From NCBI RefSeq assembly GCF_023115425.1, contig NZ_CP096032.1, positions 1,922,001 through 1,986,000 of the forward strand: a stretch of 64,000 bases of DNA. Direction: 5' to 3'. A program made the position numbers and the translations under genes. Source of the DNA: Synechococcus sp. A10-1-5-1 (GTDB lineage: Bacteria > Cyanobacteriota > Cyanobacteriia > PCC-6307 > Cyanobiaceae). The notes under the pieces are model-generated. The model saw only the letters and a program-made list of their open reading frames with translations. It ran no database searches and was not told the DNA's origin. Numbering within the stretch: position 1 is the stretch's first letter; each line of letters begins with the position of its first letter. Positions 44,908-48,986 of this stretch are shown here, in pieces.

Positions 44908-44984
44908 CGCTCGGGCAGCCCGTATGGGTCGCCCTAACTACCGCTCCAACGGCAAGTCCGTTGAGGCCTTTCTTTCCCGTACTC

Positions 44985-46064
44985 ATGACGACCACCATCC
45001 AGCAGCGCCAAGGCGCTTCTGCGTGGAACCAGTTCTGCGAGTGGGTCACCAGCACCGACAACCGCCTCTATGTGGGTTGGTTCGGCGTTCTGATGATTCC
45101 CTGCCTGCTGGCCGCCACCATCTGCTTCATCGTTGCCTTCGTGGCAGCACCCCCCGTCGACATCGACGGCATCCGTGAGCCTGTTGCCGGCTCCCTGATC
45201 TACGGCAACAACATCATCTCTGGCGCTGTCATCCCCAGCAGCAACGCCATTGGTCTGCACTTCTATCCCATCTGGGAAGCTGCCAGCCTCGACGAGTGGC
45301 TGTACAACGGCGGTCCTTTCCAGCTGGTTGTTTTCCACTTCCTCATCGGCATCTACGCCTACATGGGTCGTGAGTGGGAACTCTCCTACCGCCTCGGCAT
45401 GCGCCCCTGGATCTGCGTTGCTTACAGCGCACCCGTGGCTGCTGCTTCCGCTGTGTTCCTGGTGTATCCCTTCGGTCAGGGCTCCTTCTCGGACGCCATG
45501 CCCCTCGGCATCTCCGGCACCTTCAACTACATGTTGGTGTTCCAGGCTGAGCACAACATCCTGATGCACCCCTTCCACATGCTTGGTGTGGCTGGTGTCT
45601 TCGGTGGTTCCCTGTTCTCCGCCATGCACGGCTCCCTGGTGACCTCCTCCCTGGTGCGTGAAACCACCGAGAGCGAGTCCCAGAACTACGGCTACAAGTT
45701 CGGCCAAGAGGAAGAGACCTACAACATCGTGGCTGCCCACGGTTACTTCGGTCGCCTGATCTTCCAATACGCCTCCTTCAACAACAGCCGCAGCCTGCAC
45801 TTCTTCCTGGCTGCCTGGCCTGTGGTTGGCATCTGGTTCACCGCCCTGGGCGTGAGCACCATGGCGTTCAACCTGAACGGCTTCAACTTCAACCAGTCGA
45901 TCCTGGATTCCCAGGGTCGTGTGCTGAACACCTGGGCTGACGTGCTGAACCGCGCCAACCTCGGTATGGAAGTGATGCACGAGCGCAACGCTCACAACTT
46001 CCCCCTCGACCTGGCTGCTGCTGAGTCCACTCCTGTGGCTCTGCAAGCTCCCGCCATCGGCTGA
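44985..46064 (+). CDS. psbA: Photosystem II protein D1 (Glu130, D1:2-type)
   Basis: The reaction-centre core protein binding P680, pheophytin, QB and the Mn cluster. From ATG 44985 the precursor is 359 residues. Key residues are in register: Tyr161, Asp170, His190, His198, and at the C-terminus the Mn-ligand region FPLDLAAAE, with cleavage expected after Ala344 leaving a 15-residue extension. Residue 130 is Glu ([10 protein letters not shown]), the high-light D1:2 form; the D1:1 form has Gln. Five membrane helices as usual. It is monocistronic with its own terminator. Confidence 0.99.
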
Positions 46065-46122
46065 GGCTGAACCCAACCAACGATTCAGCTTCTACTCGAA
46101 CCTCGAGGACGGTTGAATCAGA

Positions 46123-46150
46123 AGCCCCTACCGCAAGGTGGGGGCTTTTT
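46123..46150 (+). terminator. Rho-independent terminator of psbA
   Basis: A perfect 10-bp stem AGCCCCTACC/GGTGGGGGCT (one G-T) with a GCAA tetraloop, followed by TTTT, 58 bases past the psbA stop. It ends the psbA transcript before the acetolactate decarboxylase gene. Confidence 0.9.
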
Positions 46151-46247
46151 GTTGTTGGAACCCTGAATTTTGCGTGGAGATCTTTAGTTGACGCTCAAGG
46201 TCAGGGCAATGGCCCTTCCATAGGCCTTTCATTGCGTTCAGATTCCG

Positions 46248-47102
46248 ATGAGCACGCAGCATGCAAGCGGTCACCACCTGAACGTCACGCTCGGGGATGG
46301 CCTCTGGGACGCGCTGCACGCTTTAGCGGACCGAACCGGTGAGAGCGTCAGCCACATCCTCCGCCGCTCCCTCGCGGACACCCTGGACGTGGATCACCAC
46401 ACGATCTATCAGGTCTCCACGTCCGGAGCCCTGGTCCAGGGGGTCTATCAGGGGTGTGTCCGGGTCGCTGACATCAAGCGCCACGGGGATTTCGGGCTCG
46501 GCACCTTCGATGGTCTTGATGGCGAGGGGATCATGCTGGACGGCACCTGCTGGCAGGCCCGCAGTGACGGATCGGTGCGGGTCGCTCCGGAGGAGGCCTT
46601 GGCTCCCTTTTGGGCCACGACGTTTTTCGCGGCGGACCGCACCGCGACGTTGCCGTCGGTGGTCAGTTGGGAGGACCTCACGGCGCAATTGGATGCGCTG
46701 CGCCGCAGTGACAATCTCTTCTGCGCGATTCGGGTCGAGGGCACGTTCGAGCGGATCCACTACCGCGTGGCCTGCAAGAGCGCCCATGGCACGGATCTGG
46801 TAACCGCCACCAGTCACCAGGCGGAGTTCACCCAGCGCGGCATTCGCGGAAGTCTGGTGGGGTTCTGGACCCCCAGCTATGCCCGCACGATCAATGTGCC
46901 CGGCTATCACCTACATCTGCTGAGCGATGACCACCAACACGGCGGTCACATCCTCGATCTAGAGGCCAAGGACCTAACGGTGCAACTGCATATGGACAAC
47001 CACGTGCATCTGGCTCTGCCGGAGACGCCGGCTTTCCTGGAGGCTGATCTCAAGGGGGATCCCGCTGAGGCCCTAGCCAGGGCGGAGAGCAAGCACAGCT
47101 GA
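46248..47102 (+). CDS. budA: Alpha-acetolactate decarboxylase with N-terminal ribbon-helix-helix-like segment
   Basis: Acetolactate decarboxylase converts 2-acetolactate to acetoin with a zinc centre. The 284-residue product has the family core from about residue 52: IYQVSTSGALVQGVYQGCVR, DFGLGTFDGLDGEGIMLDG, and the zinc ligands His221, His223 and His234 in YHLHLLSDDHQHGGHIL. Residues 10-46 (LNVTLGDGLWDALHALADRT then ESVSHILRRSLADTL) form a beta-strand plus two helices like a CopG/Arc ribbon-helix-helix DNA-binding unit, which is not part of the classic enzyme. No acetolactate synthase gene is adjacent. Its 3' end overlaps convergent rsmE by 30 bases. Confidence 0.87.
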   Translation: MSTQHASGHHLNVTLGDGLWDALHALADRTGESVSHILRRSLADTLDVDHHTIYQVSTSGALVQGVYQGCVRVADIKRHGDFGLGTFDGLDGEGIMLDGTCWQARSDGSVRVAPEEALAPFWATTFFAADRTATLPSVVSWEDLTAQLDALRRSDNLFCAIRVEGTFERIHYRVACKSAHGTDLVTATSHQAEFTQRGIRGSLVGFWTPSYARTINVPGYHLHLLSDDHQHGGHILDLEAKDLTVQLHMDNHVHLALPETPAFLEADLKGDPAEALARAESKHS

Positions 47103-47804
47103 ACCCTGGGCCAGGGTCGCGGTGAGGGCCGTGTCCACACTCAACGTCCGCTCCCCCAGATGGACGGGGCGGGCACCATTGGCTTGGGCGAGCTCCAGCT
47201 CGAAGGGAACAAAGCCTCCTTCCGGCCCGATCATGACCAGTGCTGGTGTGCCGGCGTACTGCCCAAGGGGCTCCTGGGCGCCCATGTCGGTGATCAGGCA
47301 GGGTCGTTCTCCAGTCAGTCCAGGCAGCTCGTCTTCGATGAAGGGTCTGAAGCGTGGGTGCAGGTGAACCTGTGGGGCGATGGTGTCTCGGGAGCGCTCC
47401 ATGCCGGCGAGCAGCGCTTCCTCCACCTTGCGGGCCTGGAGCAGGGGGCTCTGCCAGTAGCTCTTCTCGACCCGCGCGCTGTGGATCAGGTGCAGGTGGC
47501 TGATCCCGAATTCCGCGCATTGGCGCAGGATGCGGCGCAGCATTTTGGGCCTGGGCAGAGCCAGCACCAAATCGAAAGGGTGGCGCGGGGGTGGGGCTTC
47601 GGTGAGGACCGTGCTGAGCACCACGCCATGGGCATCGAGGGATTCGATCAGGCCCTGGCCGCAGGCACCTCCAAGGCGGCCCACTCGAAGGGTGTCCCCT
47701 GCACTGGCGCGAAGCACCTTGCGGATGTGGGTGGCCCGCTGGTCCTTCAGCAGCACCCGCTGCTCGTCGATCCAGTCCTCAGGTCTCAGCAAGACGATGT
47801 TCAT
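47073..47804 (-). CDS. rsmE: 16S rRNA (uracil1498-N3)-methyltransferase
   Basis: A 243-residue SPOUT methyltransferase that methylates U1498 of 16S rRNA. A PUA-like N-terminal domain (THIRKVLRASAGDTLRVGRL) is followed by the SPOUT core: ALPRPKMLRRILRQCAEFGI, and the SAM knot IGPEGGFVPFELELA near residue 195 with LGERTLSVDTALTATL. Size and motifs are typical. It converges on the acetolactate decarboxylase gene with a 30-base overlap, and the deaminase gene (47811) ends six bases upstream of its ATG. Confidence 0.94.
   Translation of the reverse strand: MNIVLLRPEDWIDEQRVLLKDQRATHIRKVLRASAGDTLRVGRLGGACGQGLIESLDAHGVVLSTVLTEAPPPRHPFDLVLALPRPKMLRRILRQCAEFGISHLHLIHSARVEKSYWQSPLLQARKVEEALLAGMERSRDTIAPQVHLHPRFRPFIEDELPGLTGERPCLITDMGAQEPLGQYAGTPALVMIGPEGGFVPFELELAQANGARPVHLGERTLSVDTALTATLAQGSAVLALRPG

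Positions 47805-48914: not shown

Positions 48915-48986
<72 letters not shown>

Follow-up and report, generated by a model that had tools for sequence, protein, structure and literature searches.

A ribbon-helix-helix domain on the acetolactate decarboxylase of Synechococcus sp. A10-1-5-1, an orphan within what appears to be one old subfamily

The window, i.e. the whole 64,000-nucleotide stretch analysed here (Synechococcus sp. A10-1-5-1, contig NZ_CP096032.1, positions 1,922,001 to 1,986,000; its genome is referred to as G000), contains an acetolactate decarboxylase gene, alsD, with a ribbon-helix-helix (RHH) domain at the N-terminus of its product. The features of the locus are as follows.

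44985..46064, plus strand: psbA, the upstream neighbour
46120..46149, plus strand: terminator-like hairpin after psbA
46157..46245, plus strand: putative deletion scar; in the two nearest relatives (G092 and G009) alsS, about 1.8 kb, sits here between psbA and alsD
46248..47102, plus strand: RHH-fused acetolactate decarboxylase (AlsD/BudA), 284 amino acids (open reading frame and translation; PF03306 and TIGR01252 above cut-off)
46272..46388, plus strand: RHH domain, residues 9-47, with the ribbon at about 10-15, helix A at 17-30 and helix B at 34-45 (RHH_1, hhalign, AF2 model and PDB matches)
46389..46403, plus strand: short linker, residues 48-52 (AF2 model of the whole protein)
46404..47054, plus strand: catalytic core, residues 53-269 (PF03306; alignment to B. 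brevis ALDC 4bt2)
46908..46949, plus strand: zinc-binding stretch H221-x-H223...H234 (invariant in 44/44 relatives; aligns with HxH..H of 4bt2)
47085-47087, plus strand: C-terminal E280, outside the core match
47073..47804, minus strand: convergent gene, which we take to be rsmE-like, overlapping the 3' end of alsD by 30 bp and kept in G092 and G009

The alsD frame (46248-47102) starts with ATG, and upstream of it a stop is reached after eight in-frame codons, none of which is a start codon, so the N-terminus of the protein is not a matter of annotation choice. In profile searches the 284-residue protein matched PF03306 over residues 53-269 with 248.6 bits (cut-off 25) and TIGR01252 with 225.1 bits (cut-off 180.65). 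All 44 aligned relatives share H221, H223, H234, E93 and R173, and E280 hardly varies. We take the residues of 4bt2 that align with these six to be E65, R145, H194, H196, H207 and E253, all presumably zinc-binding or catalytic in the B. brevis enzyme, with HxH..H supplying zinc ligands. In other words, the gene encodes a complete acetolactate decarboxylase with an intact active site, and its product is probably active, converting 2-acetolactate to acetoin and CO2. The protein shares the whole core, the zinc histidines and the active-site residues with the plain AlsD/BudA/ALDC enzymes (PF03306, TIGR01252; 4bt2), and the alsS-alsD operon is common to these and to relatives of the window gene. 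It differs from them by about 50 extra N-terminal residues, which make up the RHH domain. In the full-length AF2 model residues 47-58 have a pLDDT below 50, so the orientation of the two domains is not fixed by the model.

The N-terminus of the window protein lies at the edge of detection. RHH_1 matched residues 11-46 with E 0.0022 and 18.3 bits, and gave 20.4 bits when residues 1-51 were searched by themselves, against a curated cut-off of 20.5; a score just under the cut-off means that this protein, taken alone, would stay unlabelled. A six-frame RHH_1 scan of G000 likewise returned no match at E<=0.001. The picture is different for the relatives, as the AlsD N-termini of G023, G064 and G009 exceed the cut-off (31.5, 24.1 and 22.6 bits, respectively) in a blind six-frame scan of 61 Cyanobiaceae genomes, and the AlsD of G009 shares 90% identity with the window protein. 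A match at E<=0.01 was obtained for 20 of 45 related N-termini, the best being 8.9e-8. The profile check proposed in the preliminary description thus comes out in favour of an RHH domain for the relatives, with the window protein itself just short of the cut-off.

Comparison of 24 diverse AlsD N-termini with 14 stand-alone cyanobacterial RHHs by hhalign gave a probability of 97.6% and E 3.6e-12 over 42 columns. The profile of diverse N-termini matched CopG in the PDB (E 0.0015) as a single stretch over the whole domain. TALE proteins and designed repeats also scored against this profile and were set aside, being mostly sums of many weak stretches. An AF2 model of residues 1-52, built on an alignment of 88 rows (88 of 92 different N-termini), reached a pLDDT of 80.8 with helices at 17-30 and 34-46; the ribbon appears as coil, which is expected of a monomer model given that the strand pairs only in the dimer. 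Among the listed Foldseek and VIA-align matches to this model the structures are overwhelmingly RHH proteins (Arc, CopG, NikR, PutA, ParD and antitoxins). The PutA-operator complex 2rbf stands first among the listed VIA matches, tied at Z 6.0 with an rmsd of 2.9 over 44 residues, and close fits are seen for NikR 2cad (rmsd 1.1 over 41), ORF56 3ft7 (0.8 over 40) and ParD 6xrw_D (0.7 over 40). With CopG/Arc/VapB-type RHHs (PF01402) the domain has in common the overall RHH pattern, a conserved Gly before helix B and the hydrophobic core. Profiles, profile-profile comparison and the structure model together support an RHH fold for AlsD residues ~9-47. A plain helical extension, which the narrowly sub-threshold Pfam score and the TALE and repeat matches might suggest, is hardly credible, since relatives pass the cut-off and the repeat matches are summed weak stretches as opposed to the single stretch of CopG. 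The preliminary description, which had seen an RHH-like N-terminus on a complete BudA core with three zinc histidines and had asked whether structure prediction might show another fold, is borne out, the predicted fold being that of an RHH.

The fusion is conserved in other picocyanobacteria, as the preliminary description proposed to check. Whole-protein matches were found in 43 of 300 sampled Cyanobiaceae genomes and 36 of the 43 extend into the N-terminal domain, the remainder being fragments, contig ends or broken frames. Across the cyanobacterial class AlsD occurs in 35 of 388 sampled genomes, and the proteins fall into two sets, one RHH-fused and one with a signal-peptide-like N-terminus that the window protein lacks. 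A GTDB scan, which took one genome per species, was seeded with a core motif and is therefore not even-handed, collected 80 loci: 69 with RHH, 10 without and one truncated at the edge of its contig. Represented among them are Alpha-, Beta- and Gammaproteobacteria, Acidobacteria, Verrucomicrobia, a Melainabacterium and an Acidimicrobiaceae bin. The fusion had been called unusual; in the sense of rare this was wrong. Even-handed samples of two classes, one that of a Paraburkholderia and the other that of a Pararhizobium, had AlsD in 17 of 370 and 14 of 387 genomes, respectively; among the loci fetched, RHH is clear in L292, L293, L295, L297 and L298 of the latter class and weak in L279 of the former.

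On a tree of 105 AlsD cores the RHH label requires 4-5 changes as compared with ~34 in shuffles, the tree being fit for rough use only (a "quick" method, many long non-RHH branches, 44 of its 102 inner branches left open). The RHH domain has been lost, with the operon kept, in some Paraburkholderia (L151, L153) and Legionellaceae (L154, L158). Judging from these sequences, the RHH-fused AlsDs appear to be essentially one old subfamily with few losses, spread over several phyla. Three further observations concern the sampled loci. In three cyanobacterial genomes of one family (L072, L073, L074) two distant AlsD paralogues, both with a signal-peptide-like start, lie in tandem ~1 kb apart. The alsS-alsD pair on a Verrucomicrobia-labelled contig (L087) shows 81-83% identity to that of picocyanobacteria, and the contig is probably a misbinned cyanobacterial one. 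Finally, AlsD-like sequence is present in ten unannotated phage records (e.g. OR849019.1, OR846813.1 and OR844989.1), where it is probably host DNA.

The acetolactate synthase gene alsS lies within 600 bp up- or downstream of alsD in 42 of 79 RHH-type loci, which contradicts the earlier claim that the gene stands apart from acetoin operons. By its gene neighbourhoods RHH-alsD belongs to acetoin operons, and alsS-alsD would be the ancestral setting of the subfamily. The order is psbA-alsS-alsD in G092 and G009. Blastn blocks against G092 stop at window position 46156 and restart at 46246, with nearly identical ends for G009, which implies that ~1.8 kb with alsS is missing from the window. The absence of a synthase nearby, noted in the preliminary description, is thus true of the window and reflects a local deletion, the gene being kept in both relatives. 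Window positions 44964-46223, i.e. psbA with its 3' flank, are 98.8% identical over 1263 bp to a second psbA (G000:C1:873090-874352). That the identity of the two copies includes the 3' flank is a sign of gene conversion or recombination, coincident with the loss of alsS. We infer that recombination with the second copy may have swapped the psbA 3' flank and removed alsS in one event, which would have left alsD an orphan.

No AlsS was found elsewhere in G000, where the best match has 31% identity, as expected of IlvB, whereas an AlsS query from G009 gave matches of 68-87% in G092, G064, G115, G253 and G193. The search also covered 16 Cyanobiaceae genomes with RHH-alsD; each of the 12 with a completeness of at least 90% yielded no more than an IlvB-type match of 30-32%, apart from a second, weaker one of 26% in G162. 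A lone alsD is therefore not unique to G000: judged by these searches, an orphan RHH-alsD persists in at least 12 genomes of the family. In G181 there are broken alsD pieces (L195 and L196; C1:465385-465687 and C1:1695515-1695766), one of them beside psbA and a short alsS remnant, meaning that the operon was lost in another strain too. Near alsS-alsD in G064 lies an open reading frame (L193:5770-7446), presumably a pyruvate or indolepyruvate decarboxylase, which with the als genes would form a small fermentation cluster. Beside alsD no recurrent regulator or toxin showed up among the 25 of 107 families listed from a Pfam scan of neighbour ORFs, which covered 112 of the 120 collected at 38 chosen loci. 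Viewed as a possible type II antitoxin, the window gene has as neighbours psbA and a gene conserved in relatives. The only Rfam match was a tRNA gene on the minus strand (window 48915-48986).

Among metabolic enzymes RHH domains are best known from PutA. According to the accessible text of PMC5293562, the N-terminal RHH mediates dimerisation of PutA and turns the enzyme into its own repressor. Trifunctional PutA (RHH, proline dehydrogenase and P5C dehydrogenase) shares with RHH-AlsD an RHH of ~45 residues at the N-terminus of a metabolic enzyme; RHH-AlsD differs in its unrelated enzyme part, in the acidic start of helix B and in that a palindrome scan found no operator. One reading is that AlsD is an enzyme-repressor of the same kind: its RHH dimer would bind an operator of the als operon, in the orphans one at the ilv or alsD promoters, with the enzyme end as the sensor of acetolactate flux. 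In favour of this, the repressor role of trifunctional PutA is proven (PMC5293562, in the part accessible), and the best fold matches of the AlsD domain include PutA along with other DNA-binding RHHs. Control of alsSD/budABC operons by the LysR-type regulators AlsR/BudR is described in the accessible part of PMC10466699. The synthase is beside the decarboxylase in both kinds of operon, but a LysR gene was found within 500 bp in 0 of 42 RHH-type alsS-alsD loci as compared with 3 of 11 non-RHH operons (at 105-112 bp), a contrast that rests on three loci and is confounded with taxonomy.

The sequence of the domain itself points the other way. Position 34, with which helix B starts, is basic in only 4 of 92 RHH-AlsDs as opposed to 26 of 28 stand-alone or J-domain RHHs, so that, unlike CopG/Arc/VapB-type proteins, the enzyme-fused domain is without the basic residue after Ser/Thr. 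An acidic residue occupies position 32 in 65 of 92 and 0 of 28, respectively, and the mean net charge is -1.21 in RHH-AlsDs and +1.18 in the stand-alone RHHs. The comparison set comprises all 28 cyanobacterial RHH loci without an AlsD core, which come from few families and are in part J-domain proteins, and the p value of 1e-8 for charge overstates independence as kinship is ignored. A basic, conserved contact face is absent: the outer face of the ribbon (positions 10, 12 and 14) is the most variable part of the domain, with an entropy of 2.38 bits in the 36 Cyanobiaceae-like members as compared with 0.70 for the core and 1.42 for other positions, the same order being seen in 10 beta/Legionella members (1.68, 0.63 and 1.20 bits). 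At strand residue 14, 29 of the 36 Cyanobiaceae-like members have R, K or H, which would suit DNA. Acidic residues there were not counted against DNA binding, since they also occur in 7 of 22 stand-alone RHHs.

There is also no excess of palindromes upstream of alsD (7 of 95 regions at p<=0.05, mean p 0.54), the scan being sensitive to palindromic operators only. Inspection by eye picked out two clade-specific palindromes there, CACTATAGTG in L101, L105 and L107, and GCGACAATTGTCGC in L149 with near-copies in L090 and L098. Neither stands out in the scan: the former are not the best palindromes of their regions, and the latter, for L149, L090 and L098, are the best but not beyond shuffles (p 0.17, 0.46 and 0.42). 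DNA binding by the AlsD domain is possible in view of PutA, although its sequence leans against ordinary sequence-specific binding, and the DNA-binding role suggested in the preliminary description is left unsupported by the acidic domain, the helix-B start and the variable ribbon face. We regard an enzyme-repressor as a possibility with the odds against it. One could go further and see in the RHH-AlsDs a second large class of moonlighting enzymes of the PutA kind, which by means of a non-canonical acidic RHH surface would regulate their own operon, taking the place of an adjacent LysR regulator, or, in the marine picocyanobacteria with an orphan gene, would regulate genes for branched-chain amino acids; this is rather doubtful.

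A separate observation concerns proteins of 339-365 amino acids with an RHH_1 N-terminus and a C-terminal end (HPDSGGS...MRRLNEAYQLLK) that we take to be J-domain-like. They recur in picocyanobacteria, including those with Prochlorococcus-sized genomes (L179, L180, L181, L185, L187, L188 and L189).

The acidic domain, the variable ribbon face next to a conserved core, the residues at positions 34 and 32 and the lack of a palindrome excess lead us to favour a role of the RHH domain in pairing or assembly over the reading of DNA; dimerisation was the second possibility raised in the preliminary description. The domain would most likely pair two N-termini and so fix how the catalytic domains join. 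A precedent is available in the accessible text of PMC5293562, where an RHH fusion alone made monomeric PutA a dimer. There are several points on the other side. The four losses mentioned above (L151, L153, L154 and L158), in which the operon was kept, may speak against a structural role, as may the frequent R, K or H at strand residue 14. By analogy, PutA, the nearest precedent, binds DNA and may likewise argue against it. As a class, RHH domains serve in DNA binding or in antitoxins, which makes a purely structural role the less usual reading, and AlsD cores may dimerise without the RHH, so that the benefit of a second pairing domain is not evident.

The domain could instead dock AlsD to AlsS, IlvB or another protein, as antitoxin RHHs hold their toxins, and so channel the unstable acetolactate. 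This would fit the fact that alsS adjoins RHH-alsD in either gene order, and that all 36 Cyanobiaceae-like members carry an acidic residue at E32, with hardly any variation at H9 and D47; the RHH is, however, kept in orphans without AlsS, and we consider docking improbable.

Is the orphan gene still in use? Between the window alsD and that of G092 dN/dS is 0.053 overall, 0.118 in the RHH part and 0.040 in the core, i.e. the gene is under strong purifying selection. With G009 as outgroup, 16 synonymous changes and 1 non-synonymous change fall on the window lineage, as compared with 22 and 1 on that of the alsS-bearing G092. These values imply that the orphan is still constrained or else that the loss of alsS is very recent. 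A relic on its way out would agree with the missing alsS, with the lack of a sigma-70-type promoter match in 45950-47250 in the promoter scan and with the broken als remnants of G181. It is very unlikely, given the low dN/dS, a ratio of changes similar to that of the alsS-keeping relative, and the retention of orphan RHH-alsDs in at least 12 Cyanobiaceae genomes.

On balance we lean towards the reading that the window gene encodes a working AlsD of an old RHH-fused subfamily, in which the RHH pairs the N-termini, and which, orphaned here from alsS, now serves as a branched-chain overflow valve. The ancestral setting would be the alsS-alsD acetoin operon. The orphan enzyme would draw its acetolactate from the remaining, anabolic IlvB-type synthase, 31% identical to AlsS and the sole remaining source in G000, much as in other marine Cyanobiaceae with a lone RHH-alsD. 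This makes the tie to branched-chain amino acid metabolism, put forward in the preliminary description, plausible in this strain; the enzyme would act as an overflow valve for branched-chain amino acids and not in a dedicated fermentation pathway.

As far as searched, the fusion is undescribed in the open-licence literature, while the enzyme itself is ordinary: the terms "acetolactate decarboxylase" and "ribbon-helix-helix" were not found together there, and the fusion may be noted elsewhere. In its accessible part, PMC7600106 has acetolactate decarboxylase and CopG in separate table rows; PMC9281055 also contains both terms. Genes for acetolactate synthase and decarboxylase are reported for acetoin fermentation in deep Black Sea Synechococcus (PMC6776005, PMC8955281), and the accessible text of these two papers makes no mention of an RHH for the decarboxylase. 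An Ancylobacter copy, with a divergent, weak RHH (score 20.6), is annotated publicly just as budA.

An RHH-fused subfamily of a biotechnologically important enzyme, present in several phyla, offers a natural test of the RHH as a pure pairing module, and its operons a test of what regulates acetoin operons that have no LysR gene beside them. The marine orphans raise the question of why a photosynthetic cell should retain a drain for acetolactate if its sole source of the compound feeds valine, leucine and isoleucine.
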